A DNA stretch of 64,000 nt from Pyropia haitanensis. Its lineage: Eukaryota > Rhodophyta > Bangiophyceae > Bangiales > Bangiaceae. Shown here one piece after another: positions 8,126-44,278 of this stretch. The stretch's first letter is position 1; the number at the start of each line of letters is the position of its first letter. The stretch covers positions 5,049,874 through 5,113,873 of the forward strand of contig SDUX01000002.1 in assembly GCA_008729055.1 (NCBI GenBank), in the 5' to 3' direction. Position numbers and translations under genes: made by a program. The notes under the pieces were generated by a model. It saw nothing but the letters and a program-made list of their open reading frames with translations. It was not told the DNA's origin and made no database searches.

Positions 8126-8317
8126 ATGCCGACGCCCGCCCGCCCCCTGCTCCCGACCGACGCGCCCCCTCCCCGCCCGCCCCCCACCGTCCACACGCCC
8201 CTCCTCAGCCGCTCGGCCGCCGTGGCCGCTGCCGGTGGCACTCCCCCGTCGCCGCTGCCGCCGCCACCGGCCGGCCTCCAGGGCGGCCCCGTGGCGGGCT
8301 GGCGACTCGTGGGCGAC

Positions 8318-8408
<91 letters not shown>

Positions 8409-9997
8409 GGTGCGGCAGCCGGTACGGCGGCGTGGCGGTGGCGGCGCCTCCCCTTCCCACAGAGGTACCTCTCGCCGCGGCGCCCGCCCCCGCCTCCCCC
8501 GTCGACGGTGGCGGCAAGGCCAGTAGCGGCGTCTCCTTCCCCCCTTCCTCCGCTCCCCCCTCGGCGGCGGCGGCCCCCCCCTCCCCCCCACCCCCCCGCC
8601 GGCGGCTCGACTGGTACCCCCTCGCCGTGGTGCTCGCCGCGTGCGCCGCGCACGGCAGCTGCCTCACCGCCATTCTGCCCGTGCGCCCCAAGGCGCTCCT
8701 CGCCGCCGTCGCCGACGACGCCGCCGCCGCCGCGCTCATCACCGGCGGCCTCGCCGTCCTCTCCGCCGCCGTCGGCGTCGTCGCGTCGCCCCTCCTGGGC
8801 GCCGCCGCCGACACCTACGGCCGGCGCCCCGTCCTCCTCACCACCGGCGCGGCGGTGGCGGTGGAGCTGGCGGTCCTCGCCGCCGCGCCGACGCGGGTGG
8901 CCGCGCACGTGGTGGCAACGGTGATTGCGGCGGCGGCGGGCGGCTGGGCCGCCACGCTCAACGCGGTGGTGGCGGACGTGGCGGGCGGGACGGGGGGGGA
9001 GACCGCCGCGTACGGGGCGGCGGGGGTGGCGTGGGGGGTGGCGCTGGCCGTCGGGCCCGCCGTGGGGGGGGTGCTGGAGGGGGTAGGGGGGATTGCCGCG
9101 CCGTTTTGGGGGGCGGCGGGGGGGGTGGCGGCGGTCGCGGTCGCGGTCGCGGTGTGGCTGCCCGAAACAAAGGGGGGGGCGGGAGGGGCGGTTGGCTGTG
9201 GGGGCGAGCTGCCGCTGCCGTCGGGGGACCCCGCTGGGAACCCCGCCGGGGGGGAGGGGGGCTCGGCTTGCCTGTCGGGGGGGGGCGTGCCGCCCAGCCC
9301 GTCTCCGCTGCCCGCCTCCTCCTCCTCCACCCCTCCCCCTCGCGGCGGCATCGCGGCGGTGCTCGCACAGGCGGCGGCGCACCTCAACCCCCTCCCCCCC
9401 CTCGCCGCCCTCCTCTCTGATGACCTCCTCCGCCCGCTCGCCGCGACCGTCGCCCTCTCGGACGTTGCCACCCGCGGCGCCGCGTCGGTCTTTTACTTTT
9501 ACGTGCACGCCAAGTTTGGCTGGGACAGCGCCGACATGGCGGCCTTCCTGTCCACCCTCGGCGGCGCGCTGCTCCTCTCGCAGGGCGTCCTCGCGCCCGC
9601 CGCGGTCGCCGCGGCGGGCGGCCGGGAGCCGCCCGTCATCGTCGTCGGCTTCCTCCTCGACGCGGCGTACCTCGCCGCCCTCGGCGCGGCCACCCGCGGC
9701 TGGCACGTGTACGCCGCGCTCGGCGTCGCGACCGCCGCGTGGGCCACCGCCCCCGCCCTCCGCGCGCTCCTCTGCCGGCAGGTGCCGCGGGCGGCGCAGG
9801 GGCGGCTGCAGGGCGGCCTCGCGGCGGTCGCGACGCTGTCCGCGCCCGCCGCGCCGGTTGTGACGACCGCGCTGTACGGCTACTGGGCGCCCCGGGGGGT
9901 GCCGGGCGCCCCGCTGTACGCGCTCGCGGGGGTGGCGGTGGGGGGGGCGGCCGTCGCGGCGGCGGCTGTGGCGCACCCACGGCTGGTCAAGGGGTGA
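8126..9997 (+). CDS. MFSD14/HIAT1-like major facilitator transporter
   Basis: A 12-helix secondary transporter of the major facilitator superfamily, closest in pattern to MFSD14 (HIAT1)/TetA-like carriers; substrate cannot be read from sequence. The ATG at 8126 has a GCCGCCGCC context and gives 623 aa in one exon. The first ~160 residues are disordered, with a pure poly-Gly stretch encoded by a (GGC)n tract (8321-8406). The first membrane helix starts near residue 161. Motif A is clear around residue 222 (GAAADTYGRRPVL), and PETKGG follows helix 6. A long Pro/Ser-rich cytoplasmic loop separates the two six-helix halves. The C-terminal half carries the GRLQGGLAAVATLSAPAAP stretch that aligns with the MFSD14 pattern of a conserved Gln-Gly before helix 11. 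The stop TGA is followed at once by A13, likely at or near the 3' end. Confidence 0.85.
8321..8406 (+). repeat. (GGC)n microsatellite
   Basis: About 28 uninterrupted GGC triplets encode poly-Gly in the disordered N-terminus of the MFS protein. Length is likely polymorphic. Confidence 0.95.
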
Positions 9998-11623: not shown

Positions 11624-11630
11624 GATGATG

Positions 11631-11718
11631 TAACGGAGCAGGGGCTCGAACCCTGGACTTTCGCGTTGATACCCGTGGGTTATTAGCACGACACTCTAAC
11701 CAACTGAGTTACACCGTC
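11631..11718 (-). tRNA. tRNA-Ile (anticodon AAU), with a 14-nt intron
   Basis: A full cloverleaf folds on the minus strand. It has a D stem ACTC/GAGT, an anticodon stem TCGTG/CGCGA with loop C-T-AAT-A-A, a 5-nt variable loop, and a T arm CAGGG/CCCTG with TTCGAGC loop. The AAU anticodon gives inosine-decoded isoleucine. Fourteen extra bases (11667-11680) sit between positions 37 and 38, the canonical nuclear intron site, so the mature RNA is 74 nt before CCA addition. A- and B-box promoters are internal. The acceptor stem pairs GACGGTG with CTCCGTT, leaving a T-T mismatch at pair 6-67 and a G-T at pair 1-72, so either editing is needed or the copy is slightly degenerate. No encoded CCA. Confidence 0.88.
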
Positions 11719-12721
11719 ATTGAAGTACCAGTACTTCTCTTGACAAAATCGGCTCGCAAACATGATATGAACATGAATGAATCTTATGTAAGAGACTTGC
11801 GTTACGAGGTGGAAGAACGTTGATGCACTGCTCTGCGTAGTTCAACGTCTCAACTACTGCATCAAGTCCAACCAGGCTTCCATAACATTGTCGGTGCTTT
11901 CCATGTAGTACGTCAAAGAAAAACGAGCCACATTGGATTTCAGCATGTACGTGGGCTACAGGGCATGGTGGATCCTCTCCTACACACTGTGAGCGAGGGT
12001 CAACTTGCTGTGCAATTATCCCCGGTACACTCGCGACCGCCTACTCCAGCCGATCAGGAAGGGTGCCGACCAGCTCCCCGTCCACCCCTCCGGCCTACAG
12101 CACTCCTCATCAACGAGTACACACCCGGAACAAGCAAAAATTGCTTGTGTATTCTCCTGGCGTGCTGGGTGGCTAGGAAAAGGTGAAGCGGGCGACAAGG
12201 CGGGGTGGAGGCGGGCGTCGGACTCCGGCGCTTCAACCGCTGGCGTCCCAGCAGTCGCGCTAGTCGCTAACCAGGCTACTGGCCGAGTCAAACATTGTAT
12301 ACACAGCAATGATGGGTTCGGGATGCACTCCTCAGGTTGGACGGCTGAGATCGTGTGACAGCCTATCACATGAGTCGAGTGCCGCATTTCATTTACCAGA
12401 TAGGCCTCGAGATGTGAGCCAAGTAGGGGGTCCATGTATTGATCGCAGTTGAATATCTCGTAGAGCAGTTTATATTATCAAGTACCTCTGTGCGTAATCT
12501 ACCCTCATCCGGCATGGGGGGACCGCAACCCCCCCAAATTGCGTCTCTGGGGGGGGTCCGCCGCGGTCCCCCCAGGCCAAGCGGTCCCCCCAGCAACTAA
12601 GGAAATATTGGACACATTAGACGCTGAATAGTGCCTCTACTAAGGTTTGTGTAAGTGGGTACTACTGCGTGAGCCGTCATGCCCCATAAGTCTGAAGGAA
12701 ATGCTGTCTCAAGTCGTTCTT
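11719..12721. other. low-GC island without a recognisable gene
   Basis: Base composition falls abruptly to near balanced, unlike the roughly 70-75% GC on both sides. The longest ORFs are about 120-140 codons and resemble nothing I know. Contained structures: TTGATGCA (about 11819) and its complement TGCATCAA (about 11857) forming an inverted repeat, and the GGGGGGACCGC / GCGGTCCCCCC inverted pair near 12516-12591. It may be old mobile DNA or a regulatory/unique intergenic segment. Confidence 0.5.
12516..12591. repeat. G/C-rich inverted repeat
   Basis: GGGGGGACCGC at 12516-12526 is complementary to GCGGTCCCCCC, which occurs twice downstream (about 12563-12573 and 12581-12591). Either pairing would give an 11-bp hairpin stem. 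It lies at the GC-rich edge of the low-GC island. Confidence 0.6.
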
Positions 12722-12976
12722 ATGCCCTCGTCCACCTCTGCCCCCTCACCTGGCGTGCACGCTAACGCCACCGCGTTTTCGACCCAAGCCTTGGGCGCTG
12801 CCGCCGCTGCCGCCCGTCCCGCCGCCCCCGCCGCCGCCGTGGGCGCCGACGCCACCGCCTGGGCCGCCGCCACCACCGCCGCCGCCGCCACCACCGCCGC
12901 TGCCGTCGTTGGTGGGGATGCGGTGGACGCGGCGGTGGCGGCAGCGGTGGCGGACGGGGGGAGCCACCTCCGGTCC

Positions 12977-13010
<34 letters not shown>

Positions 13011-14221
13011 TGCTGGCCGCGATGCGGGCGGCGGAGGCGGAGGAGCTGCGGGCCGTGCGGGAGGGGCGGGCGGTGTTGGCAGTCAAGGCCGGGGCGGCAG
13101 CGGCCGCGACGGCCGCGACGCGGCTGCGGGAGGAAGCGGCCGAGGCGGACGCCGAGGCGTACAAGCGGGGTACGTTGGAGGGAGGGTGGGGGGGGGGGGG
13201 GGAAGGTGGTGAGGGGAGGGCGGGGGGACTGTCGGACCGGGCGACGGGGAGCGCCTCCCCGTTTTATGTTCTGTTGGTGCGTGGGTTGAGGCGCTCCTGG
13301 GGGCTGCAATGGCCTGGGTGCGCGGGCGTCTCACCGCGCGCGCACTGCCGCGCCCCAGCCGCCGCGGCCGGTGGCCGCCACCGTTCCACGCCCCCCACCC
13401 CTCCGCCTGGTTGCCGCATCGACTGACGCACCCCCCCCTCCCGCCGCCCCCTGCCATCACCCCCTCGGCTGCCCCCCCGCCGCAACCGCCCCCTCCCTCC
13501 CAGAGACCGACGCGATGGAGGCGGCGGCGGCGGCGGCGGCCGCGGCGGCCCGCCGCGCCGACCGCTACGCGGCGCTGCTGGGCGTGGCCGTCGGCAACGC
13601 GGCGGCTGCGGCGGTGCTCGTCTTTCGGTTTACGTACGTGGACCCGCGGGCGCCGGCGGCGGTCGCGACGGTCGGCTTTGACGCGGCGCTGTGGGGTACG
13701 TTCTGGGGGGGGGGGGTGGGGGGGGGGGGGGGCGTGCGCTCACGCACACCGGGGGGAGAGGGAAGAGGTAGGGGGACCGTCGAGGGGGGGGGGGGTGGAA
13801 ACCTGCAGAGGTGGCCGACCGGGGGGTCGCGGGGGCGAAGTCGGGTACGCGCGCCGCGGGGCCACCCGCCGCCGCGGCCGCCGCCTCGAGCGGCGGGCGG
13901 CGGCGGCGGGAGCGGGCCCGCCCCGCCCCCCACCCCCGCCGCGGCACCCCTACTCGCCGACCCTAACACCCGCCCGGGTCCATCGCTGCGCCATCCCCCC
14001 CCCCCCCCGAACCCCCCGCTTGCCCGTCCCCACTGCACCCTCCCCCCGTCCCCCCCCCGGCAGTCACCCACTGCGAGCCGCGGGTGCCGGCGCTGCCGGC
14101 GCTCGCCGCGCGCTTCGCCACCGACGTGGACGTGGCCGCCTTCCTCCTCGCCGTCCGCGCCGCGTTTATCGCCGCCGCCGCCGCGGGGTCGCCGCTGTCG
14201 CCGCCGCCCGCCGCGGGCTGA
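12722..14221 (+). CDS. hypothetical Ala-rich protein with coiled coil and membrane segment
   Basis: Three exons (12722-13169, 13504-13695, 14064-14221) join in frame at two GTACGT donors and CAG acceptors to give 265 aa. I do not recognise the family. The N-terminal half is almost pure Ala with scattered charge. It is followed by a likely helix/coiled coil (residues about 105-165, with AEAEELRAVREGRAVLAV and RLREEAAEADAEAYKRE), then a hydrophobic stretch GVAVGNAAAAAVLVFRF that could cross a membrane. A short C-terminal tail holds one Cys (THCEPRVPALPALAARF). Each intron phase is 1 and each join yields a clean codon, which supports the model. An alternative start is the ATG at 12701, inside the low-GC island. 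Confidence 0.55.
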
Positions 14222-14597
14222 GGTGGGGGGGGGGCGCGGGAGGGGCGGGGGGGGCGCGGGGGGGGCGCGCCGGCCTCGGCGGCCGGCGGCCGCTCCCGCC
14301 CCACCCCCTCACGGTCTCGCCCGCCGCTAGGCACCCCCGTGCCGCTGCGGACGATGCCGCCCCGCGACGCAAGAGGCGTGGGCTGCCCCTTCTCCCCCGG
14401 TACCCGCTTGGGCAAAGAAGTAGAACGAGAGCATGGCCGCCGCCCCCCTACGTCCCCGACTGGTCCCCCCCACCCTCCCCATCCTCGCCTCCCAGTACCC
14501 CCAGCCCCCATCCCCAGCCCCCCCCCCCACCCCACACTCCCCACAGCTGCCGCCCTGTCCCCCTCCCCATTCCCACTCCACCCCCCCCCCCCGCTTC

Positions 14598-14706
14598 TCA
14601 CAGCGCGCTCTCGTACAACAAGAACTGCGAGTCAAACCGGCAGTGCGCGCGCAGCGCGCGCAGCTGCGCGCGCGCCGTCGCGACGGGCGCCGGCAGCGCC
14701 GCCGCA

Positions 14707-14738
<32 letters not shown>

Positions 14739-15507
14739 GGGCGGCGGCCGCGCGTCGCCGCCGCCGCCGCCGGCCGCGTCGCCGCCGCCGCCGCCGGCCG
14801 CGTCGACAGCGGCGGCGGCGGCGGCGACATCGTCGGAGCCACCGCCGCGGCCGCCGCGGCCGCTCTGGCCGCCATCCGCAGCGGCGGCGACGGTAGAGGA
14901 AAAGGCGTCAACGGCGGCGGCCGCGGTGGCACCGCGCGTGCCGGCAGTGGCCGGGGAGAAGAGCAGGCCGCCGCCCGCGGCGGCAACCACCCCCGCGGGC
15001 GGCGCGTCCCCGACACGCGAAGCCTCCAGCGGAGACCCAGCCCCCCCCCGACGGCCGACCCCCCCCTTCGTCCACCCCCACCCCGCGCACCGTCCCCCCC
15101 CACTCCCCCATACGTCGCGACCACCCGCCGAAGCCCATCCGCGGCTGTAGCAAGCGCGCCCAACCCCCCCCCCCCCCAGTGGCGCCGCCGCCGCCGCCGC
15201 CGGCTGCGCCGCCGCCCCCCCCCCCCGCTGCGCGTCGGCCGCGACGGCGGCGCCGTCGCGAGCTCCGCCAGCAGCAGCGGGAGGTCGACGCCGCCGGCCG
15301 CGGCGGGCGCGACCGCCGCGGCGACGGCGGGACCGAGGTGGGGGGCGGGGGCGAGCGCCGCGAGCGCCGCTCCGGCCGCGAGCGCGAGCGCAGCGGCCGT
15401 GTCTGCCGTCGCGGGCGGCCACACGCAGCCACCGACGTCGCTGCCGCCCGCGGCGCCGCCACCGCCGCCGCCGCCGCCGCCACCTCGGCCGACTCCCCGC
15501 CGCCACT

Positions 15508-15539
<32 letters not shown>

Positions 15540-16983
15540 GCCGCCCCCCGCCGCCATCCCTCCAGCCGCACGGGATCGGCCGCGGCGGCGCGGCCACGTC
15601 GACCGCCTCGACGAGGCGGACGAGGACGGCCGCGCCGCCCGCGCGGGCGATCACCACCGCCGCCTCGGCGTAGACGTCAAAGACCGCCAGCGCGTCGGCG
15701 TACGTGGCCGCAACGCCGGCGGCGGCGGCGCCACCACCACCGCCGACACCGCCGCCACCATACCCACCAGCAGCAGGGGCAACCCCCCCCCCCCACCGCC
15801 GCCGCCCCCACCTCCACCCCCCCCGCCGCGGCCACCCGGTCCCCAAGCGCCACCCCTGGCATTACCCTGGTCGCGCCCCCCCCCCCCTCCCCACCGCCGC
15901 CACCCACACCGCCGCCGCGGCCGCGCCCCCCCGCGCCGCCGACAAAGCCGACCGCGCCGGCACGCTCCCCCCCCCCCCGCCCCCCCACCCACCGCCAACG
16001 GCGGCGCGGCAGCAGCGGCGGCGGCGGCCGCCGCCGCCGCCACCGCCGCCGCCACCGCCGCCACCCCATCCACCGCCCGCAGCGACCGGGCGGTGGCCTC
16101 GAGCAGCGCCGCCGCCGCCGCCGCCGCGCCCGCCCGCGACGCGTCAAACGCCGCCCACACCCGGCCGAGCGGCTCGTCGGCAGCGGCGGCGGCGGCGGCG
16201 GCGGCGGCGGGCCGGGACAGCACCGCCGACAGGCGCGCGATGGCGCGCGCCTCGTCGCGCAGCGGGTCGTCGGGGGGGGGAGCGCGGGGGGGGGGGGGCG
16301 CCGCCCGCGGCCCACCCGCCGCCGGCGCCGGCGCCGCCCAGCCCCGCACCGCCGCCGTCAGCCGCGGCGCCGGCGGCAGCCGCCGCCGCCGCGGGCGTCC
16401 ACGCGCGGGCGGCGGCAGCCGACGCGGGCGGCGGGCCGGGGGGGGGGGGGGGGCGCCCGCCGGCGGGGGGGTGGTGGGGGGGGGGGGGGGGGGGGGGGTG
16501 TGGGCGGATGCCGACCTCGCCGCCGCGGTCGAGGTGCCGCCGCCGGGGGGGGGGGGGGGGGGGGGGGGTCAAGCGCGAGGCGGACGCGCCCGTGGCGTTT
16601 TCAGCTGGGGAGGGGGGGGGGGGGGAAGCGCCCGCGTCGGGGGCTGTGAGGGTGGGGATGCTGGCCACCCGCGGCGGCGGCGCGGGGGAGGCGGCGCACC
16701 CCGCGCGGTCCACACCTCCCGCGTCGCATCGGCGGCGTCCCTACCCACCCACCCCCCAACCCCCGCCCGTGCCCTCACAGCCCAGGCACGCCGCAGCCGC
16801 CACCGCCGCCAGCTGGCTTCCCCCCCCCCCGCCCACCGCGGCAGCCGCCGTCGTTGCCGGGTTGCCCACCGCCGCCGACGGCGCGGCCGCCGCGGCCGCC
16901 GAGGGCGGCCTGGCGGCCGATTGTGGCGGCACGGCCGGAGGCGGCGAGGTCGCGTACGCGCAACGATGTGCGATCAACAACAT
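14598..16983 (-). CDS. hypothetical multi-exon Ala-rich protein (approximate)
   Basis: Several minus-strand blocks look coding but change frame, implying at least three introns or G-run errors. The first block starts at ATG 16983 (MLLIAHRCAYATS...). A middle block has DEARAIARLSAVLSRP, EPLGRVWAAFDASRAG and TARSLRAVDGVAAV. The next has TYADALAVFDVYAEAAVVIARAGGAAVL, and the last ends RALRAHCRFDSQFLLYESAL-stop at 14598. Helical, Ala-rich content is all that can be said; the family is unknown. The first four codons overlap copy 1 of the 109-bp repeat, so the true start may have been elsewhere before that repeat arrived. Transcribed toward the 12.7-14.2 kb gene, tail to tail. Confidence 0.3.
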
Positions 16984-17080
16984 CGTGCGGGTCGTGCGAC
17001 ATTCGCAGTAGTACTACTGCGAGTCACGCGGACGTCGATGGCCCAGATCGAGTAGCACTACTCAAGTAAGTCCGAGTAAT
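16972..17080 (+). repeat. 109-bp direct repeat, copy 1, with 20-bp palindrome
   Basis: Starts GATCAACAACATCG and ends GTCCGAGTAAT. It contains a perfect 20-bp palindrome (17003-17022) built around the core GTAGTACTAC, and a second, imperfect 14-bp palindrome (17050-17063) with the same core, broken by one C. It differs from copy 2 at three positions. Composition is far less GC-rich than its surroundings. Confidence 0.95.
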
Positions 17081-17202
17081 CGCGCTGTAGAATAATAACT
17101 TCCCACGTAACTATACGAATGAAAGCGGCACACAGCGACTGCAGTGCGGGATATGACATGGGGAGCCCTTCTGGCCGTGCTCGCATGCTGGCAACGTCCT
17201 GA

Positions 17203-17311
17203 GATCAACAACATCGTGCGGGTCGTGCGACGTTCGCAGTAGTACTACTGCGAATCACGCGGACGTCGATGGCCCAGATCGAGTAGTACTACTCAAGTAA
17301 GTCCGAGTAAT
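17203..17311 (+). repeat. 109-bp direct repeat, copy 2, with two perfect palindromes
   Basis: Second copy, 122 bp after the first. The 20-bp palindrome (17234-17253) is retained and the 14-bp palindrome GAGTAGTACTACTC (17281-17294) is perfect here. The pair lies about 700 bp upstream of the Fanzor start and could be a terminal or recombinase-binding structure of that element, or an independent small element. Confidence 0.95.
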
Positions 17312-17672
17312 TGGATCGCACAAAAGTAAGTCGTCCGTAATTTAATACAAGCTGTGCCGCCTTATTCGTCGCCGGCGCCGTCGGCGCCGCCGCCGCGCCC
17401 GTTGCCGTCGCCGCCGACCCCGTTGCCGCCGTTGCCGGCGCCGGCGCCGCTCTTGGCGGCCGCCGCGACCGCCAGCACGGCAGCACTTGCAGCCTCGCGT
17501 AAAATTTGTGACGCTGATCCCCACCCAGACGCCGGTCGGAAGGCGTGAATTACGTTGACCGCCCCCGCCCGGACATCTGACGGACGACCTCGCCGACAGA
17601 TCTCCTTGAGCTCCCGACGTCGCCGGTGTTCCTTGTGTTGCGCACGTCGCCAGGGTGACGCCGCTCACCAGA

Positions 17673-17698
17673 CCCCCCCCCCCCCCCCCCCCCCCCCC
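17673..17698 (+). repeat. C26 homopolymer
   Basis: Twenty-six consecutive C residues, the longest homopolymer in the window, upstream of the Fanzor promoter. Such tracts can form i-motif/G-quadruplex structures and are hard to sequence, so the true length is uncertain. Confidence 0.9.
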
Positions 17699-17901
17699 TC
17701 TTCAACCCCCCCTCCCGCGGCCCCCCCGCCTCAGGTCCACGTGGCGCACGCACAGGCCACCCCCCCCCCCCCCTCCCCTTCCACGCAAAATGCGGATGCC
17801 GCGGGGTGGATGAGATCCCCAGATACTGCCGCGCCCGGCGCGTAGCAAGTCCGCCCGCTGAGCCCGCGCGGGGGGCTCCCCCCCGACGCCTGGCGCCCCC
17901 A

Positions 17902-17907
17902 TATAAG
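17902..17907 (+). promoter_or_regulatory. TATA box of the Fanzor gene
   Basis: TATAAG within CATATAAGCGGGG stands out in GC-rich DNA, 64 bases before the first in-frame ATG (17966) and 118 before the preferred one (18020). This is the only convincing TATA element I noted in the window, and it suggests the Fanzor gene carries its own promoter. Confidence 0.65.
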
Positions 17908-18019
17908 CGGGGCCGCTCCCTGCCGTCCCCGCCCCCCGCCACCACTGGGACGGCAGCACCAGACCGTGCCAAGGAGCACGCGTCCCCCCCACCGGCTCCC
18001 GACGTCCGCGGCGCTTGCA

Positions 18020-20206
18020 ATGGAGCCGGACGAGGAGGAGCCGGGCGCCGGCCCTCAAGACGAAGGACCGCACGGACACGGCGCAGACGCCGACGACGCC
18101 CTCCCGCCCGGAGATGGCGCCGCGTCGGGCGACGACGCCGACCCGCGGGAGGTGGCCGAGCTGGAGGCCGCCGTGCACCTCAAGCAGGGGCGCCTCCGCG
18201 GGCTGCTGCGCCGCATGGGCGAGGCGCGGGCGCGGCGCCCGCAGCTGCCCGACGGCGCCGCGCTGGACGCGGCCCTCGCCAGAATGACGGCGGCGGCGGC
18301 CGCCGCAGCCGGGGCGCCCCACGAAGCCTCGCCCACCACCGACGGCGCGGTGGCGGCGTCGGGCGCCGCCCTGGAGGCGGCCACCACCCCGGCGGTGGCG
18401 GGCGCGACCGCGTGGGTGGACGCGCACCACCCGTTGGACGACGACGGCCTTTTGGCGCAGCGGGCGCGGCGGGCGGCGTCCCTGATTGGGAGCACCTCCC
18501 GCGGCATGGCGCGGCGCGTGGCAGAGGTGGAGGACCGCCGCGGGGCGGCGCCCGGCGGCCGCCCCTGCGCCCGCTGCCGCCAGCGGTCTCACAAGACGGG
18601 GGCGGCGACGTGCCCGGCCACGGCGGTGGGCGGCGACAAGAACCCGCACGCGTACGACCGCGGGGAAGACCCCGCCGCGTCCGACCCGTACGCCTGCCGG
18701 GCGACGGGCACGTCGTCGGTGATGGTGCCCGTCGCGGCGGTCCTGCGCACCCTGCCCGCGAGCCCCGACGGAACGGCGCACGCCGTCGTGCGCGGCGGCT
18801 TCCTCGCCACCGCCGAGCACCACACGCAGCTGCACTTCACGCTGACGCTGGTGTGGCTCAACACCGTGCACACCCTCTTTGGCGCCGTCAAGGCGGACGG
18901 GTGGGCGGCGGCGCTGCCCGGCCCCGCCGGCTGGGGCGAGTACTGGAACTGGGTGGCGTACGCGGTCTGCTGCCGTGGCGCACACGGCGGCAGCCTGCCC
19001 GCCGGCGTGAAGTGCGGCAGCTGCGAGCGGGCGCGGGACAACACGTTGTGCGGGCCTGCTGCGCGTCGGCTGTCGGTGTCCTACCCGGCCTTGATGGACG
19101 CCACGCGTAACGCCATGGACGCGCTCGCGTCTTCCTTTGACGCCGCGTGCCACGACCACCTGCCGCACGGCAACAGCCACGCGCGGTGGCGAGGGGTGGT
19201 GACCACCATCGTCACCCACACGGCGAGGACGGTGGCGGTCGCCACCCGGCGGCTGGCGTGGCGGGTGGCCACAATGGTGGTGGATGCGGCCGACGCCCCC
19301 GCCTCTGGCGAAGAGCAACGCGGACGGCGCCGCGCCGCGGTCTACGCCGCCGCAAGGAGCTGCCTGGAGCGGGGGAGCGACGCGCCCCACGCGGCGCACG
19401 CGGCCAAGCTGGACGCCCTACCCCCCGACGTGCGTGCGGCGGCGCTCAGGGAGATTGCCGACGCGCGGGTGCGGGCGCAGCCGGCGCCCGTGCAGGGTAC
19501 CCCACCGCTGTTCCCCACAGGCGGGGCGCACGTGGTCGCGCGCCGGTGGGCAGAGTACATCCCGTACCTGCTGCACGTGCAGGCGGAGGGGGTGGTGGAC
19601 AAGCCCTTCTCGCTGGTGCCTGGCAAGGCCGCCACCCTGCACGGGTATGGCACGGTGACCAAGGCACGCCTGGGCCCGCTCATCCGGCGCGCCTGGCCCG
19701 CACACCGCGAGCTGTACGAGGACGTCCGTCGGCGGGGGGCGGCGGCCATTGCGGGACTCCTGGGGCTGGAAACTGCGCGGTGCACCTCCGGCGCCGACCT
19801 CCGCTCCAACGGGGAGGGGGTGGTCTTCACGCTGTCGCGGCCGGCGACGGCCGCCGAGGCCGAGGCCGCGGACGTGGCGGCCGTGACGCGCAAGGCCAAC
19901 GGCAGCCGGGTGCAGTCGCGGGTGCAGGGGAGCCCCACCACGCAGCTGGAGAAGCAGGGCTTCCCCATCGCCGCCGTCAAGACCCTCACCGTTGTGTCGG
20001 CAGACCTCGGCAAGGCCACCGTCCTGACGGCCGTCTCGTCTGGGCCGACGGCAGCGGCATGGGGCGACCGCCCGTGGGTGCGCCGCCGCCGGCTGGCGCG
20101 GTCGCGGCTGGTGGCGGCGGACGCGCTCACCCGCGCGGCGCTGGCGCTAGACGCCTTCGTCTGGCGCGCCGCCGCCCTGGCGCCGGCCGAAGCGGCGGCG
20201 GCAGGC

Positions 20207-20249
<43 letters not shown>

Positions 20250-21988
20250 GCGGGGCCCCGCCGGGAGCCCTCACCCCCTCTCCGGCGTGGAGAAAGCGCA
20301 AGGCCGCCCCCGGCGGCGCAGAGCAACGGCAGCCGCCGTGCGGCAACGCGGCCACGACTGGACCGCCTCGCGGCGGCGCCGCCGGCGGGACAGCCGCGCC
20401 GGCGCCATCGGTGCGCCCGCCGTCGGAGAGAACCGCGCGGGGGCCGGCAGCCTCCCTCCGGCGCGGCGCCGTGCGGCGCCTGCGGGCCGTGGCGCAGCGC
20501 CTGGTGGTAACCACCGGCAATGGCCGGTGGCGGGTGCCGCGTCACGCGGCCGTCGACGTGGCGCTCGGCTGCCTGCGCCGGGCCGCCGCCGGCTGGGTCC
20601 GGCCGCGAGTGGCAGACGGGCGGCCCGACGGCGCCGCGTTCGCGGCGTGCAAGACGGCGGCGGCGGCGCAGGACGTGGCCGCCGCCGGCGCGTTTGCGTC
20701 CGCCTAGGACGGCCTGACGGCGCGCGTGGCAGACGCGGTCGGGGCGACGCGGGGGTGGCGGGCGCCCCCCCCCGCGGGCGCCGTGTACACCCTGACCAGG
20801 GGCCGCTACACCGAAGCTGCAGGCAACGGCATGACGGCGCGGGCGGCGGCGGCGCACCGGCGGGAGGCGGCGCAGCGGCTGGCCGCGCTCCAGCTGCCGC
20901 CGGCGACGACCCCCGAGGTGGTGGCCGCGCACGACACGGTGCGGACGGGCGACGCGGCGGCGGTGCTGGCGGCCAGCCGCCAGTGGATGGAGTCACGCCG
21001 CCAGCCGCAGTACAGGGCGGTGTGGGGCGCCGCGGCGACGGCCGGCCAGCGCAAGGCGCGGGTGCATCAAGTCATCCGACGGCGGCGGCTGGGCGAGGCC
21101 GTGGCGCGGGAGCTCACGGGTGGCCGCCTCCGCCGCGTCGTCAACCGCTCGGCGGTTGTGGTGGTGGTCGGGCAGGCGGCCACCCGAGGGGGCGCCACGT
21201 GGCTCCGCCGCCACCTCCGCCGGCTGTGCTGGATGGTGGACGCAGACGAGCACAACTCGAGTCAGGCGTGCGCCGGCTGCCGCCAGCAGCTGGCGGTCGT
21301 GTACGCGTCGGCAGCGGCGCCGCCGCCCGTACCCCGCGGCACCCTGATCTGTGGGCGGCGGCGGGGCCGCCGTGGCCGGCAGGGGCGCCCGCGTGCGCCG
21401 CCGACGGCCGGCTGGGAGCGCACGCAGCCGGTGCGCTCCGCCGCGCGACGGGCGGCCTGTCGAGCAGAGGCTGCCAAGATGGCGGCAGAGCGGGCGGTCA
21501 AGCACCCACCCCCGGCGAGGGTCGTGTTTCGTGCCCCCGCCGCCGCGGGGGTGTGGGGCGTCAAGCGCTGCGTGGAGCGGGCGTGTTCGCGGCAGCTGGT
21601 CAACCGCGACGTGAACGCGGCGGCCAACATGGGGTGGAAGGCGCTGCGGCAGATACGGCAGCTGCCGTGCCACCCGTTTATGCGCCCGCAACGCGTACGA
21701 CGGCCGAGGCTGGGAGGCGGTGACGACGGCGAGGCGGCGGGCGCCGCCGCCGCAGACCGAGCTGGCGACGGCGCCTGCGGCCGTCCCCCAGGCGCCGCAG
21801 TGGTGGCGGTCGCCACGGGCGACGCGGGCGGGGAGGCGGCTGTCGGACCGGATGGCGACGGCGGGGCGCGGACGGCGGTGGTGGCGGACACGCACACGGT
21901 GGCAACCACGGAGCTCGCCAGAGCGGCAGAGACGGGAGACGGTGCGCCAGCGGTGGCGGGCGGCGGCCGGGCAACTTCCGTGGCGTGA
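18020..21988 (+). CDS. Fanzor (eukaryotic TnpB-like RNA-guided nuclease), interrupted by one in-frame TAG
   Basis: A homologue of IS200/IS605-IS607 TnpB, a nuclease that uses a transposon-encoded RNA to find DNA targets; eukaryotic copies are called Fanzor. The frame is continuous for 1,322 positions with a single TAG at 20705-20707 (position 896). Visible features: a C-x2-C-x4-H-x6-C zinc-knuckle-like motif at residues 183-198; a FSLVPGK segment near 530; RuvC-I VVSADLGKATVLTAV with the catalytic Asp at 662; a long Ala/Pro insertion (about 720-850); VDADEHNSSQACAGC, whose Glu1077 matches the alternative RuvC-II glutamate of Fanzors; a zinc ribbon Cys1084/Cys1087 and Cys1184/Cys1189; and RuvC-III NRDVNAAANMGW with Asp1197. 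All catalytic residues are kept, but RuvC-II and -III lie beyond the stop. Longer than most Fanzors. Start could also be 17966. I find no splice pair that removes the stop; readthrough, recent inactivation or a sequence error are all possible. Confidence 0.88.
20705..20707 (+). other. in-frame TAG within the Fanzor ORF
   Basis: The codon context is GCG TCC GCC TAG GAC GGC. The same frame stays open for 427 further codons and these encode RuvC-II, the zinc ribbon and RuvC-III, so the stop divides the nuclease domain. No other in-frame stop or frameshift is present across nearly 4 kb. Confidence 0.95.
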
Positions 21989-22193
21989 GTCGGTTCCACA
22001 CCGCGGTACTCACGGCACGATAGCCACCGGCCGCCGAGTGCCACGAGCTCGGTTCACCCCTCTCTCCGACGAGCCGCGTGCGGGTTTTCGTCGGATGTTC
22101 AGATTGCGTGTGAGGGGGGTTACTCTGCTATCGCAGAGTTTCTCCCCGGGGGCCGGTCCCCCCACGTGCATACTCTGGGTTGCTGGTCCCCAG
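21985..22193 (+). ncRNA. candidate Fanzor guide (omega) RNA region
   Basis: A chain of hairpins starts at the Fanzor stop codon. GTGAGT/ACTCAC (21985-21990 with 22008-22013) encloses CGGT/ACCG. CCGAG/CTCGG is at 22034-22052. An 8-bp perfect stem TCCGACGA/TCGTCGGA is at 22065-22095. A 7-bp stem ACTCTGC/GCAGAGT with a TATC tetraloop is at 22122-22139. CTGGG/CCCAG is at 22175-22193. TnpB and Fanzor guide RNAs are known to overlap or follow the 3' end of the nuclease ORF, so position and structure fit. That this is the guide RNA is inference; its 3' end, where the guide would begin, cannot be placed from one copy. Confidence 0.45.
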
Positions 22194-25787: not shown

Positions 25788-27568
25788 TCACACCTGCAGC
25801 CACGCCGAGACGGAGCCACCCGCGCACGAAAAGTCCGCCCACCCCCCCCCGTCGGTCGTCACCTCCCCCTTGACGTGGCCGAGGGCGTCGACAAAGCGGG
25901 CGCCGCCGCCCGCGGCGACGCGCATGCGACGGGCGCCGCCCGGGCCGCTCGACAGCACCACCGCGAGGGCCTTGCCGCGGCCCGCGCGCGTCCACCCGAT
26001 GAGCTGCCGCGAGCCGCCGCCGAAAAAGTCCACCTCCTCCCCGTACGCGTGGTCCCGCCTCAGGCGCAGCAGCACATCGATCACCTGCCGGTGGGAGGGC
26101 AGTGTGATGACCTGCTGCGTCGCGCCGTTGCGGGTGATGCCGCCGTAGTAGTCGGCGTGGAAGACGGCCGGGTAGCCGCCGCGGCGGAGGAGGACGAGCG
26201 CGTACGCGAGGGGCTTGAACCAGTCCGCGACGGGCGAGGCGAGGCCGTGGAAGAGCAGCGTGTCGTGGTTGTCCACAAACGTGACCGCCAGGGTGGGCGT
26301 CGTCGCGACGAGGGTGCCCTCAAAGATGCGCGTCATGTCGTACGCGTTGCCGTTGAGCGACGCCTCGTGCATGTGGTAGTGCAGCGGCACGTCCATGAGC
26401 GACATGCTGCCAGCCGTATTGTTGATGTACGCCTGCAAGGCGTGGGGGAGGGGGAAGCGCGTGGTGCACCATCAAAGAGCGACACAGAGGTGAATAGGTC
26501 ATGTGCGAATAGACACCCAGAGCAGAGGCGGGTGAGCGGGAACGGTTAGAAAATAAGCAAAACCGGCAGTGGCGGGTTGGACCGAGAGTAAGGGAAAGAG
26601 CAAGAGCCTCTCCGACAAAGCCACACGGCGTCGCACCCCGCTGCATAGCATCAGCAGCCCCCACCGCCCAATGCACCAGCACACCCACCACGTACCTGCA
26701 GCGACTGCACGTTGTTTTCCCAGTACTCGCCCACCGCAAACGCGTCGGGCCGCACCTCCCGCACCGCCGGCAGCCACGAGTCCCGGAAGAACCGCGCGTC
26801 CATGTGCTTCACCGCGTCCAGGCGGGCGCCGTCGAAGCCGACCGTCCGGAACAGCCAGCGCCCCCAGTCGGCCAGCTCCCGCCGCACCCACTCCGCGTCC
26901 GTGTCCGTGTCGGCGCCGAGCAAGTAGTCATAGTTGCCGCGCTCCAGGCTCGTGTACTTGTCAAAGCTCTTCCCCTCGAGGAGGTACACCGTGCCGCCGG
27001 CGCCGCCCAGGTTGGCGTCATAGTCCACCGCGTCAAACGAGCCACGGTCCCACTCGTAGGCCGAGTACTTGCCACGCCGCCCGGGGAAGGTGAAGCGCGT
27101 GTATGCGCGGATGCGGCGCGGCGGCCCAGACGGCTTGGACCGGTCGTTGGCGGCGTACGGGGTGGCCGTCACCTCCTCCGTGCCGTCCGCGCCAACCCGG
27201 TGGTTGAGCACCACGTCCGCGTAGACCTGGACGCCCGCGTCGTGGGCGGCCGAGACGGCGGACACCAGCTCCGCCTTGGTGCCGTACTTGGTCCGCACGG
27301 AGCCCTTTTGGTCAAACTCGCCCAGGTCGTACGTGTCGTACACACCATAGCCAACGTCCGCGGCGCCGGCGTCACCCTTGTACGGCGGCGGCAGCCAGAC
27401 GGCGGTGACGCCCGCGGCGGCCAGGTCCACCGCGTCCACCGCCAGCTGCCGCCACAGCCCGCCGTCCGCGGGGAGGTCCCAGTAAAAGTACTGGAAGAGG
27501 ACGCCGTTCCCTTCGGCCACCTGCGCAGCCCGGGCGGTCGTGTTGCCCTGGTCCGCCGCCGACGCCAT
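25788..27568 (-). CDS. alpha-amylase (GH13, liquefying-type)
   Basis: Hydrolyses internal alpha-1,4 bonds of starch or glycogen. Two exons (27568-26696 and 26432-25788) join exactly in phase through a GTACGT donor and TTGCAG acceptor to give 505 aa. The four GH13 regions are all present: DVVLNH (118-123), GARLDAVKH with nucleophile Asp251, VGEYW with acid/base Glu281, and FVDNHDT with stabilising Asp348. The N-terminal FQYFYWDLPADGGLW and the W/L-rich start match bacterial-type and plant/algal intracellular amylases (GH13_5-like) rather than secreted animal enzymes. A C-terminal beta domain ends in SVSAWLQV. No signal peptide is visible, so a cytosolic role is likely; in red algae starch is cytosolic, which would fit, but localisation is inference. 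ATG 27568 is the first in-frame Met before the catalytic domain. Confidence 0.93.
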
Positions 27569-29295
27569 GGCCGCGACGCGGGGGGCGTCGGCGGAAGGGG
27601 CGGGGGGGGGGGAGGGTGGGGCGGCGCGGGCGGCAGCAGCCGGGACAAGCGGACGGGAGGCACGAGCGCGGCGGGGGTGGCAGCCGCGCGGGGGGGGGAG
27701 CGAGCGGGCGAGCCGTCCCGCCGCCGGCGGGGGCGGCTGCTTAAGTGGGCGCCCCGGCGCGGCCGCCGGCGCCCCCGCAAGACGTCATCCCTACGAGCGC
27801 ACCACCCACACCCCCCCCCCCCCCCCCGCGGGCCATCCCACAAACGGGCCGCTGCCGCCCGGGCCGCCGAGCCGCCGCCCCCCCGGCCGCCACCGCCACC
27901 GCCACACCCCGCCCCGCGGGGCGGCCGCTGTGGCAGCGTGGCCGCCCCCACCCGCCGCCGCGCCCGCCGGCGGCCGCCACGCTTCGGTCTCCCCGCGGCG
28001 GCGGCGCGGACACGCCGCCGCCGCCGCCGCCGCCGGGAGACACACCGCAGCACGGTGGGGGGCGGTGGCGGGGTCTCGCGAGGTGTGCCGTCCCCCGCCC
28101 CCCCCCCCCCTCGCCCGCCCGCTCCCGCTTCCCGCAGGTCCAGACGCCCCGCCGCCACGCATCGCTGTGCCAGCGCACACAGCCGACAGCGGGTGGGGCG
28201 GGGGGCAAGGGGCGCGCCGCCGCCGTGGCCCTCCCGAGCCAAGCTGTCACCGGCGAGGCCGGCGGACACCGCCGCCGAGGACCCGCAAGCGCATCATCCC
28301 GCGACGGGGGGATCGAATCAACGGGCGGCGGCGGTGGCGCCGCGCTGGGGGCGGGGAGAGAGGAGGCTCGGCGTCGAGCCTTGGGGGGGGTGCCGCACCG
28401 CGTGGGCCTGCAGACGGGCACGACGAGCAGGGGGGGGAGGTGGGCGGCTCCTGGCAAGCCCCCTCGCGGCGGCGGCTGGGCGATCCCGCCACCGGCGGCC
28501 CCCCCGCTTGGTGGACCGGATCCAGGCGCGCGCTTCGACAGCCCGCCCAGACACGCCCCACGCAGACGCCGCGGGCCGTCGTCGTCCAGAGGGGTGACGG
28601 TCCGCGGCCGCGGTCGCTGTCACCGCCCGGCGCTCATCGCCGGCCAGCGGGACCACCCCAGCGCGCCACCCCGCCGCCTCGGCCGTCGCACCGGTGACGC
28701 GGCGCGGCGGCGCCAGCCTGCCGCCCCGCCCCGCCCGCCGTGCGCGCCGCCTCCGCCACAGGCGGGGGGGCGCCGGCGGGCGGCAGCCCGCGGGCGCCGT
28801 GGCCGCGCGTGTCGGCGTTGGCGGGCGGTGGACCGGGCCGGGAGCGCGGTGCGGCGGGGCCGCCCCGCGTAGGCGGGTGGCAGCCCGCCCGTGTCAACCT
28901 TGGACGGACGCCACCGGCGCGGCGCGTGTAGCCCCAGACGGCACCGCGGGGCGGCGGGCGGGCCCGTGACGCGCCAGCCGACGCCGGCGGGACAGAGAGG
29001 CGGGTCGGCGTCGGTCGGGGCAAGGTCGAGGAAATTTACACACTGCAGGGGGCCACGCAGGGACCGCGGCGCCAGGCCATGGCGCAAAGGCGCCGCCGAC
29101 AGCGCGTCGCAACGCCCCCCCCCCCTCCTCCCCACACCGCCCTCCCCACCAGCTTCAGCGCGAGGACGCAGACACGGCAAACAGGGTGGGAGAGTGGAGC
29201 AAGCGATGCAGCCAGCGCACGCAGCGGAGTAGTGCCAAAAAAAAAAAGGGGGAGGTCGACGAGAGCAGCTGACGGCCGCGGCGCGGCGACCGACT
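27569..29295. other. intergenic region between ARP4 and alpha-amylase
   Basis: No gene recognised on either strand. Open frames are Arg/Pro/Gly products of GC triplets. The left part should hold the amylase promoter and 5' UTR, the right part the ARP4 3' UTR, including A11 at about 29237-29247. Confidence 0.4.
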
Positions 29296-32276
29296 CTACG
29301 GGCCGGTGCGGTGCAGGAACGCCGGTCCATGCTGCGTGCGAGCAAGAGCCGGTCCGACAGGCCACGCACACCCAGGCGGCATCGCGAGCGCCCAAGGAAG
29401 GGAGACACCGCGCGGAGGGTTCAAGACCAAACGCAGCAGGACAACAAGACAGAGCAGAGCGCACCGGGCGTGGTCAACGTGAACGGCGTTAGTGGCTGTG
29501 TGAGCCGCAGACTTCCCCAGCCGCTGGTTGCAGCGCCGACCGTGGTGCGTTCGCGTCGCACACCGGTCTCCCCTGTCCGTATGGCCCTGCAACGGGGAGC
29601 GCTGCCGCCACGCGGCGGCAGGGGCACATGCCCAACACAGCGCGCACACGCCGTCCGCCCAGCAGCACAGCCGCCAACGTACCTCTTCATAGTCCGCCTT
29701 GGACACCCACATGCGCTGAAAGTCAGTAAACGTGGCGAGGATGCTCCCCCCCGTCCACGTGCAAAAGCGCCGCTCCGGAACGCCCGACGCGGCCAGCACC
29801 CGCGCCCGAAAGTGGTGGCCCATCAGCTCCCCGCTGAGGCGCTCAAAGAGGCCGCCCAGGTTGCTCGTCCCGCCCGTCAGGCAGATGCCCGCCCACAGGT
29901 CCTTGTGCGTCGACTGGTCGGCCGAGCGGAGCGCGTCGAGGACGAGGCCGCTGAGGCCCGCCGACGAGCCCGTCGCCGCCGACCCGTACGCCGCCGTGTG
30001 CGCCGCCGACGCGGCGGGCGCCGCAAACGAAATGCCCGCCGCGGCGGCCAGCGCCGCCCGCGGTGGGGGCGTGTGGGGGAGGCGGCCAAAGAGGGCGCCC
30101 GCGGCGGCAAACTGGCGAGGCCCGCCCAGGTCCACCACGTTCCCGTCGGGGAGGGTGAAGCGGACGTCCGACTCGCCGTCCGAGTCGTCCCCGTCGCCGC
30201 CGACCGCGCCGGGGCCGCCCGCAGCGGCCGCCGCCGTCGCCTTGGCCGTCGCCGCCGCCGCCGCGCTCAGCGGCTCCTCCACCCGGCAGAGGGCCTCCTT
30301 GATGGACTCGACCAGCCGGAGCCGCGCAAACGCGCCGTACGACGGCGTCGTGCCGGGAAAGGACAGCTCCTTGACGGGGGGGGGAAGCCGCGCCAGCCGC
30401 CGCGCAAGGGCGGCCGACGAGGCCGACGGCCGCCGCGCGGCGGCCGCCGTCGCCGCCGCCGACGCCGCGGCGGCGGTCGCGGCGGTGGCCGCCGCGGCGC
30501 CAGCCGCCCCCCCCAGCGCACCCCCGTTGGACCCCGCCCCCGACACGGGGGTGATTTCGTCGCCCGCCTCGGCCGCCCGCTCCGCGGCCGCCGCCGCGGT
30601 GGCCGTCGACGCCGCCGTCGCGGCCGCCGCCTCGGCCGCCTCGGCCAGGGCGGTGGCCTCGACCGCCGCGTCCGCCTCGGCAATGGCGCGCTGCTGGTCC
30701 CGCGCCGCCGCCGCCGCCTCCCCCACCAGCCGCCGGTATGACCACAGCGGGCGGAGCGGGATCTTGGCCTCGTTGGTCACCTGCGCGGCGACCGCTTCGG
30801 AGAGGCTCCGCCCCGCCACGCGGGTGCGGAGGACAAGCGACCGCGCGACGGTGCCGTCCAGGACGGGCGCCGCCGTCGTTGTTGCGTCGCCCACGTCCAG
30901 CACCACCCCCGTGTGGCGGCCATTGGCATACGCGGCGAGGACAACCGCGGGGGAGATGGCCAGCGCGGGGGCGCGGTGCGTCTCAAACAGCAACTCCCCG
31001 ATTCTCTCCCGCTGCCGGATGCACGCGTGCGTCGGCTCGGCGTACATGACCGCGTAGTCCTCCGAGGCGGCCTGCACGCCAGTGCTGTACGCGTGCGCCA
31101 AGAGGCCCTCGTACGCTTCCCAGTTGGCGACCAGGCCGTCGGCATCAAAGGCGGGCGTCACGTCCATCTCGTCGCGCCGAATCCCCAGCGCCTGGTCCCC
31201 GACCACGATGCTCCGCTTGGCGGGCGGCCCGCCCCCACCATTGGCAACTCCAGCAGACGCTGCCCAAAAGGATTTAGACGGGGAAGGGTAGACGAGTCTC
31301 GATGACATACAACAGCAAACACGCCAGCAAGAAAGAGGGGCGAAAATGACCAGGCACAGTAACAAAACAGCAGCCGAGAATCACGAGGTGAGCAGGCCGC
31401 ACAGCACGTACCAGTATAGGGGATGCAGCCATGTCGACGCGAAACTGGACAGTACAGAGCGGAGGACAGAGGGACCGCATACACGCCAAAAAATAAAGAA
31501 AAACAGATGGGGCGGACAGACCAGATGACCCCCAGCCGTGACCCCCACACGTACAAAAAGTCCCGACATTGGACGAGTACAGCGAGTGCGGCAGGTCTTC
31601 CCCGGCGTATCCCTGCGCGGGTCGCCGTCGCGGCACAAGCGGGGCCAGACAGGGGCACAACGCGTGCGGGAGTAGCAAGCGAGACGCGCGTCAGCAGCGG
31701 CGTCGTCGGGGTCCCCTCCACCGTAGCACCTCGGCGCAGTAGCGCAGCCCCAGAGCCGCACTGGCCGGCGGCGGGGGCGCCCTCCCCGTACGCCGAGCCC
31801 CACCCCTCCCCCCCTCCCGCCGACACCGCGTCGCCCACCCGTCCAGGCACATCCCCGCGCACCTGACCAGGGACGCCCACGCCCCCCCAGCCTACCCACC
31901 CCCCTCCCCTCCTCCCTCCCCCAGCACAAGTGGCCAGCCGCAGGCACCCGCCGCCAACGCTGCCGCCACCCCCGCGACGGGGGGGTGAACCGCCAACCCG
32001 CGCACCATCCCACGCGCCGCACCGACCCCCTCCCACCCACCCCTCCCTGCCCCCTCCGCCATCCTCGCTCGCGTAGCGACGTTCATGCCTGCACCCCCCC
32101 CCCACCGTACGCCCCCGCCCCCACCCAGACAGGAAAAACAAGAAAAAATAAAAAGGCGGAGGGGGGCCCGTCCCCGCAAGCCGCGCCAGAGGAACGCCGC
32201 AGCAACGTACGACCTTGCAGGTGTGGGAGCCAAAGTCAAATACCACCGACGGGACGGTGCCGTCGACTTGGAACAT
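29296..32276 (-). CDS. actin-related protein 4 (ARP4/BAF53/ACTL6-like)
   Basis: A nuclear actin-related protein that, with actin, forms a module of chromatin remodelling and histone-acetylation complexes (SWI/SNF, INO80, SWR1, NuA4). Four exons can be placed to the base: 32276-32211, 31612-31555, 31259-29683 and 29331-29296, giving 578 aa. Exon 1 encodes FDFGSHTCKV, exon 2 GYAGEDLPHSLYSSNVG, and exon 3 the DEMDVTPAFDADGLV, YAEPTHACIRQRERIGELLFE and ANGRHTGVVLDVG stretches typical of ARP4. The 36-base last exon ends HGPAFLHRTGP, aligning with the actin terminus. A roughly 150-residue Ala-rich insertion, partly Glu/Arg-containing (RAIAEADAAVEATAL), interrupts the middle, so the protein exceeds the usual ~430-490 aa. 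ARP4 identity rests on these segments rather than on general actin resemblance. Each exon join keeps the actin alignment. Confidence 0.9.
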
Positions 32277-32820
32277 GGCGACGCGGCGCGGGCGTCGCCC
32301 GCGGCGCGCGGCGCGCGCGCGACCGCGCCCGCGCAGGGCACGGCGGCAGCGGCGGGGGCGGCGGCCGCGGCCAGGCAGGGCGGGCGGGCGCGAAGTCGGC
32401 GGGCGGCGAGCGGGCAGCGCGCGCCAAGACACGGGTGGGATCCGATGACCGAGCGGACGGTCTCAAGGTGGGACTCAAGAGGGAGGATGGTCAGGGGGGG
32501 GGGCCTCTTTGTCAATTGATGGCCTCAGTCTGCGTCGCAATCGATCGCCCGTGTATTGACGACACACAATGGGCTTTCACTGTGCTCGTGCGAACGGGCG
32601 CATCCCGCATTCATCGCGTTTTCGTCCGGTGCTCCAGCCGCTACGCCGGTCTTGGGAGTGGCCGTCGACGGACGCGCTTGTTCCCTGACCGAGGCGTCTT
32701 CCCCCTGCTAGCCTTTTGTCTGGCGACAACTGCCCTGGCCACCATCTCTGGTGTGTGGCTGTCCCGGTTCACGACGCTTCCCCCCTCCCCCCCCCCTCCC
32801 CCATCGACACCGTGGCGGGC

Positions 32821-35231: not shown

Positions 35232-35264
<33 letters not shown>

Positions 35265-44231: not shown

Positions 44232-44278
<47 letters not shown>

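Follow-up and report, generated by a model that had tools for sequence, protein, structure and literature searches.

A mobile element encoding a candidate Fanzor-type nuclease in the red alga Pyropia haitanensis, probably inactivated in one copy by a recent stop codon

The locus

A stretch of 64,000 nucleotides (nt) of the Pyropia haitanensis genome (contig SDUX01000002.1 of assembly GCA_008729055.1, positions 5,049,874 to 5,113,873 of the forward strand; hereafter the window) contains a long open reading frame (ORF), which the initial annotation described as an oversized Fanzor nuclease split by a single in-frame TAG. Fanzors are studied as eukaryotic RNA-guided nucleases. The frame, its coordinates, the single TAG at codon 896 and the motif residues were all confirmed by re-reading of the sequence. 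The ORF lies in the 3' part of a mobile element and is followed by a candidate structured RNA that ends together with the element (Table 1). With a probability of roughly 0.78, the locus is one copy, inactivated not long ago, of a mobile element that is amplifying or did so until very recently and that encodes a divergent and oversized Fanzor-type RuvC nuclease together with a scaffold RNA of about 190 nt.

Table 1. Features of the element, in positions of the window
Feature	Position	Strand	Basis
Whole mobile element, 9.68 kb	12495..22175	+	Ends common to copies, unrelated DNA outside
Left end with hairpin (GGGGGGACCG...CCCCCCC)	12495..12554	+	End comparison
Possible spliced gene of unknown function	12644..14218	+	Codon-usage scan, open segments; exon limits guessed
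121-bp direct repeat, copy 1, with 20-nt palindrome	16960..17080	+	Repeat comparison
Second copy of the 121-bp direct repeat, containing perfect palindromes of 22 and 14 nt (TTCGCAGTAGTACTACTGCGAA)	17191..17311	+	Repeat comparison
Putative TATA-like box, 113 bp 5' of ATG	17900..17907	+	Sequence
ORF of 1,322 codons for an oversized Fanzor-like nuclease (pseudogene in window copy)	18020..21988	+	Frame, motifs, sister copies
N-terminal C-x2-C-x4-H-x6-C, zinc-knuckle-like (C183-C198)	18566..18613	+	Conserved in P0002, P0004, L022
RuvC-I D662-L663-G664 (DPG in sister copies)	20003..20011	+	Alignment
Ala/Pro-rich insertion	20192..20470	+	Right limit approximate, by eye
TAG private to window copy	20705..20707	+	Copy alignment
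E1077 (alternative RuvC-II Glu), then [S][S]xx C1084-x2-C1087	21248..21280	+	Alignment
C1184-x4-C1189 and RuvC-III N1195-R-D1197	21569..21610	+	Alignment
Candidate omega-RNA, ~190 nt; 3' end is the right end of the element	21984..22175	+	Covariation, fold

Limits and copies of the element

The P. haitanensis genome itself (52.9 Mb, 136 contigs) was searched for copies; contigs, loci and proteins are numbered here with C, L and P. The C-terminal part of the ORF gave 37 matches, 11 of them near identical (window copy included), and alignment of the window copy with the 10 others over 17280-22175 contained 46 variable columns, indel columns counted. An uninterrupted frame of 1,322-1,323 amino acids starting at the same ATG was present in six copies (C7:2.77M, C11:3.08M, C131, C7:1.92M, C11:7.20M and C4:2.98M), and the remaining four (C10, C11:3.14M, C9 and C11:13k) were cut by repeated, apparently long terminal repeat (LTR)-like, sequence with repeated parts of about 870 bp.

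The sequence from 12495 onward was common to the window and C10 copies, with unrelated sequence outside. The C7:1.9M copy carried the same first 8 bases of the left end followed by a short deletion and then the rest. In the C7:2.77M copy the first 14 bases agree as well, and a deletion then extends to 13153. The right end at 22175 was common to the 10 group-1 copies that keep the 3' side, again with unrelated DNA outside, and the last 216 bp were full-length at 100% identity (rounded) in all 10. Two other positions considered for the left end, 16512 and 13153, were rejected since L011, L015 and L010 place the real end at 12495. Truncation of the kind known for long interspersed nuclear elements (LINEs) was likewise rejected as the sole cause of the varied 5' junctions, because at three of the junctions LTR-like sequence has inserted into the gene and split it, and the L010 junction is a deletion just inside the true left end; this reading covers the three insertions and L010, and excludes the 5' limits of L012, L014, L013 and L017.

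The LTR-like repeat (repeated part about 870 bp; 3.5 kb common to L011 and L018) was found inside sister Fanzor genes at three points (L011, L013, L018 and L025). In the C9 and C11:13k copies, both halves of one break are found, on different contigs and with a 5-8-bp overlap, which suggests rearrangement or misassembly.

Candidate omega-RNA and gene-less derivatives

In the candidate RNA, the TGA stop codon of the ORF falls within the first (5') stem, the second conserved hairpin occupies 22065-22095, and the last stem is closed a short way inside the right end of the element. A guide, of some 10-25 nt if it resembles those of known Fanzors, would begin at 22176. The last 216 bp of the element were found at 34 genomic places, 10 near identical and 24 more diverged. 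Sixteen sequences picked as distinct (15 of the 34 places and L026) were aligned, and a structure of 31 pairs, written by hand after the alignment was read, was compared with shuffles: 90.8% of 491 cells were paired against 84.8% in shuffles, and 20 cells carried two-sided changes against 7.0 (0/500 shuffles as high in both cases). Seven pairs showed two-sided changes (3/500 shuffles as high) and further pair types numbered 21 (29/500), these pairing counts including L043, which lacks the first stem, the poorly aligned L026, and the pairs 141-204 and 147-199, unpaired in most rows. Sliding of the partners lowered pairing to 37-48%. The fold of the single sequence gave a z-score of -2.55, with 2 of 200 shuffles as good, and the RNAalifold consensus reproduced both conserved hairpins as well as the first stem. 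Rfam gave no match at the candidate RNA, with one hit at E 0.65 far below the cut-off. As judged from sequence and structure alone, the element carries a conserved structured noncoding RNA (ncRNA) ending at its right end, a trait of Fanzor systems.

Five gene-less derivatives, or ghosts (L042, L044, L046, L048 and L051), of about 1.1-1.3 kb each, consist of the left-end region joined straight to the last ~320 bp including the RNA. Four of the five had the same left end (0 or 1 difference in 70 bases) and one was shortened, and none of them was among the 37 matches to the protein part. In the genome, the ghost left end gave 35 matches, some short or at one locus, and the RNA end of the ghosts' subfamily gave 36, group-1 copies counted.

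A ghost-type left end without a nearby RNA or right-end match was found at C8:90522, C9:2678990, C3:4099715, C4:254796 and other places, which may possibly represent autonomous partners.

Mode of movement

A plausible proposal, complementary to the nuclease reading and for which the balance is about even, is Helitron2-like rolling-circle transposition of the element, with Rep/helicase supplied in trans. No target-site duplication (TSD) was seen; hairpins can form at both ends and no terminal inverted repeat (TIR) was seen, the latter two being characteristic of Helitron2; 5'-shortened and internally deleted copies keep intact 3' ends, as in CRe-1/2/3 according to the part of PMC3627910 consulted; and two Helitron_like_N loci (C9:6366806 and C8:4588886) have listed family copies at distances of about 11.5 and 20.2 kb. 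A search for the serine recombinase PF00239, a trait of IS607-type Fanzor2, gave no match in the genome while detecting 10 of 14 controls, other transposase families not being searched. The details of the ends fit less well. The 11-base inverted match TGGGGGGACCG, subterminal in the element and the sole one of at least 7 in the outer 60 nt, occupies positions 21-31 counted from the left end and 12-22 counted from the right end, whereas the asymmetrical terminal inverted repeats (ATIRs) of Helitron2 are placed, in the same excerpt, at 0-2 bp from the 5' terminus and at 20-30 bp from the 3' terminus. It is moreover absent from the one ghost tested (L046), of which the right hairpin carries a substitution; the ends lack the canonical TC/CTRR; and CRe elements often have TSDs (PMC3627910, as excerpted).

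Relationship of the protein to Fanzors

At 76% G+C, the window contains as many as 91 ORFs with a length of 300 amino acids or more, and open length alone is weak evidence for a gene here. The frame is taken as real because of its composition on both sides of the TAG (G+C at the three codon positions 0.78/0.65/0.91 on the 5' side and 0.81/0.67/0.88 on the 3' side), its homologues and its sister copies. The relatives found by search were P0002 (66% identity over 90% of the query region), P0003, P0004, P0005 and P0006, of which P0002-P0004 align without gaps through the TAG position and the more distant P0006 has a 4-residue insertion beside it; the last 176 of the 733 residues of P0003 are identical to L022 of the same genome. 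A search from P0006 returned only P0006 itself and P0003. A third subfamily, partly decayed in this genome (L026 on C93, L060 on C3 and L059 on C8), has the relatives P0007-P0014, including P0008, P0009, P0013 and P0014, Pyropia yezoensis proteins annotated as hypothetical, and P0007, which is 100% identical to L059 over the searched region. The open frames of subfamily 2 reach 1,531-1,556 codons. Among viral contigs 10 stretches fit a pattern, with no relative among them, and a tblastn search of plasmids gave one match at E 8.

The catalytic and zinc-binding residues of the window ORF are D662, E1077, C1084/C1087/C1184/C1189 and R1196-D1197. The initial annotation regarded every catalytic residue as retained: the D, E and D are indeed kept, but DPG reads DLG and one glycine of CGxCG is Glu. 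It also regarded the N-terminal zinc-knuckle-like motif and the Ala/Pro-rich stretch as unusual; both are present, but neither is peculiar to the window copy, because they are common to P0002, P0004 and L022. When P0001 was shuffled, a relaxed motif chain was recovered once in 2,000 and the stricter family chain 0 times in 2,000.

Two published patterns were compared, each as given in the part of the source consulted: a Fanzor fingerprint (PMC10711439) of DPG, 120-160 residues to a Glu placed six residues before the first CxxC, and CxxC-x(12,18)-CxxC-x(4,8)-D; and a TnpB/Fanzor motif (PMC3627910) of D-x(125,275)-[TS][TS]-xx-C4 zinc finger-x(5,50)-RD. DPG was found at RuvC-I in the sister copies, P0002-P0004, P0006, L022, L026 and L059, the exceptions besides the window copy being L060 (DPR) and P0011/P0012 (DTG). 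The spacing of the alternative Glu, E1077-x6-C1084-x2-C1087, agrees with the fingerprint and recurs in P0002-P0004, P0006, L022, L026, L060, P0008, P0010, P0013 and P0014, with Lys at this place in L059/P0007. The [TS][TS]xxC, C4 and NRD of the second motif are present, with too long a spacer. Between subfamilies with intact frames, which are about 50% identical, the D, the alternative E six residues before CxxC, the C4 and the NRD are conserved. No Pfam family except PF07282 (TNB) was matched in two or more proteins of the family; six of 17 scanned matched it (E-values 0.02, 7e-4, 0.015, 0.06, 0.028 and 0.0049), the matches falling on the zinc motif and, in P0006, on the NRD end.

A number of observations weigh against the reading as a Fanzor. 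The spacer from D to E is 412 residues, the zinc loop 96 and the second cysteine pair C-x4-C, so that only the last spacing (7) fits PMC10711439 as excerpted, and the patterns of PMC10711439 and PMC3627910, in the parts consulted, were found in none of 16 sequences, several of which are fragments. All the TNB scores (12.6-20.2 bits) are below the cut-off of 26.3, and 11 of the 17 proteins gave no TNB match, among them P0010 with a different zinc-ribbon match at E 0.05. NCBIfam gave no match, and the PDB searched by sequence and profile gave nothing relevant (two chance matches, E 0.92 and 2.1). Comparison by hhalign with 53 actinobacterial TnpBs of one clade gave a non-significant E=0.25, against 0.23-0.96 for five column permutations and 0.43 for the reversed profile. 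Two AlphaFold models had a mean predicted local distance difference test (pLDDT) score of 37 and 42. A Pfam search of 12495-17000 in six frames revealed no transposase in the element, the single match (E 0.075) being regarded as chance, and comparison with the 5' region of subfamily 2 revealed none either. Constraint between the subfamilies with intact frames is indicated by a ratio of nonsynonymous to synonymous substitution rates (dN/dS) of about 0.46 (0.45-0.51 for pairs with group 1), and of 0.28 for one fragment; against this, the values were obtained by a simple method on very GC-rich DNA, two L028 pairs with barely overlapping segments (29-30% identity) gave 0.71-0.72, and values up to 1.0 occur among pairs that differ little. 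For the RNA, control (b) is biased toward the structure because this was chosen after viewing the alignment, and the RNAalifold consensus lacks the last stem.

The 19 columns aligned by hhalign fall on the TNB motif, and the AlphaFold predictions were uninformative, probably for lack of depth. The TNB profile run over the whole genome missed the family and gave two sub-threshold zinc ribbons, L062 and L063, which were judged on reading to be unrelated to it.

The sub-threshold profile scores, the unmatched spacing patterns and the hairpins at both DNA ends would also suit a DNA-binding zinc-ribbon protein of the element, such as part of a transposase, that is unrelated to the TnpB/Fanzor group and has look-alike motifs, in which case the RNA would be a structured 3' end used for transposition as DNA hairpins. 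We consider this unlikely: the order D..E-x6-CxxC..C..C-x7-D with NRD is conserved across subfamilies, the Glu spacing is the Fanzor-specific one, TNB alone in Pfam was matched repeatedly, and the RNA placement and ghosts are as described for SpuFz1 in the part of PMC10432273 consulted. The name Fanzor given by the initial annotation therefore holds in part: motif order, alternative-Glu spacing, right-end structured RNA and ghosts speak for it, the profile scores and the two published patterns do not. Formal membership is likely, and Fanzor-like behaviour is indicated by several independent features of the sequence.

Origin of the stop codon

Codon 896 is leucine in all nine other copies that cover it (the tenth near-identical copy, a C9 fragment, does not reach the codon). 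Among the seven full frames, the window copy carries eight private ORF substitutions as against 1, 0, 3, 2, 1 and 0 in the others (Poisson P ~3e-5), nine gap columns and one three-state column omitted; with the three-state column counted in, the intact copies have 2, 0, 3, 3, 1 and 0 (P ~2e-4). The eight comprise the stop, four missense changes (G336E, P663L, V713F and A831T) and three silent ones. P0002, P0004 and P0005 likewise have G336, P663 and V713; P663, which falls within the DPG motif, is kept in P0003 and P0006 as well, and residue 713 is Gly in P0003. Because the TAG is private and accompanied by this excess of private substitutions over the 0-3 of each intact copy, the window copy is taken as recently dead, the first of three explanations that the initial annotation offered. 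The TAG in itself is ordinary transposon decay.

The second explanation, a miscalled base or assembly error that creates the stop, is very improbable. The public fragment P0005, the last residues of which resemble adapter sequence, matches the sister copies and not the window copy at the three sites it covers; it fits another copy equally well, and all eight private substitutions would need to be errors. Programmed readthrough or reassignment of the stop, by which the TAG would be decoded and the window copy would make a full-length protein, agrees with the single stop, the kept frame and the coding-like composition on both sides, but is hardly credible given the leucine in the nine sister copies and the four private missense changes, including P663L in DPG and G336E. 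An intron over the TAG was rejected as unlikely because P0002-P0004 align ungapped across the site with leucine there.

On the sequence comparisons, then, the TAG is the recent decay of one copy. The element limits, the copies, the intact sisters, the private nonsense mutation, the conserved RNA structure, the gene-less ghosts and the constraint between subfamilies are established. L026 of the third subfamily carries a TAG just 5' of its zinc motif, at a position different from that of the window copy.

Other features of the element and its surroundings

The 5' 5.5 kb of the element is of low complexity. Coding-like stretches of the possible spliced gene are at 12752-13165, 13503-13691 and 14084-14218. 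The two 121-bp repeats, 231 bp apart and 94% identical, lie in an AT-richer island (52.6% G+C over 16960-17360). In L011, L015 and L016 an insert shared with subfamily-2 loci is present between 16946 and 17280.

Just left of the element, a tRNA gene of 89 bases was identified at 11630-11718 on the minus strand by both Rfam and ARAGORN, the latter assigning it to Tyr with an unusual anticodon (ata), which perhaps reflects a misplaced intron. Host genes identified by Pfam at 1257-9973 and 25791-44576 include ABC transporters, MFS, alpha-amylase, actin, gelsolin and GNAT.

Proposed mode of action and comparison with known systems

In the mechanism proposed, the nuclease would bind the scaffold RNA that extends from the stop codon as far as the right end, of which a 3' extension into flanking host DNA may serve as guide; cleavage of matching DNA would favour retention or copying of the element, the ends of which would be moved by a separate enzyme in trans. 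Somewhat short of an even chance, and offered tentatively, is the wider proposal of a separate giant red-algal Fanzor lineage with enlarged zinc domain, N-terminal zinc motifs and long scaffold, missed by published patterns and the Pfam cut-off, in which ghosts would supply guides in trans and the nuclease would work with hairpin-ended rolling-circle elements. Such a lineage would lie far beyond the published limits of length and spacing; Fanzors of GC-rich algal genomes may have escaped pattern searches, the relatives there being filed as hypothetical proteins. With six intact near-identical copies, a defined element, a covarying RNA and ghosts, one genome offers a testable system.

In the literature on Fanzors in red algae, of which subscription papers were mostly outside the coverage, no description of this family was found. 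The two P. yezoensis proteins I4F81_004571/I4F81_012187 (P0008, P0009) are 55% identical to L059 of the third subfamily; P0008 shares the FNTSQAC zinc motif, P0009 is without zinc motif, and both are shorter gene models than the family members here, labelled hypothetical protein in the source. The solved Fanzor structures gave no sequence match to the protein. SpuFz1 of Spizellomyces punctatus, in the part of PMC10432273 consulted, is likewise a single-ORF element with catalytic D, E and D, a structured ncRNA between stop codon and right end, and gene-less ghosts. It differs in its protein of 638 amino acids, its ~2.1-kb element and its 30-nt inverted repeats, as against 1,322-1,323 amino acids, 9.7 kb and no TIR here, where the long D-to-E spacer (412 residues), the 96-residue zinc loop, C-x4-C, the N-terminal zinc motifs and the ~190-nt RNA are further differences. 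The remaining likenesses are to elements described in the consulted part of PMC3627910. CMe-1A, a Fanzor element of Cyanidioschyzon merolae, likewise has a rhodophyte host and many copies; its consensus is ~3 kb against 9.68 kb here, and the two are likened by description only. The Helitron2 elements CRe-1/2/3 of Chlamydomonas with Fanzor1 differ in having genes of five to ten exons, as against one open frame here, and often TSDs, none being seen here; they share with the P. haitanensis element the algal host, the non-autonomous state, the end hairpins, and the preservation of the 3' end where copies are truncated on the 5' side or internally deleted.

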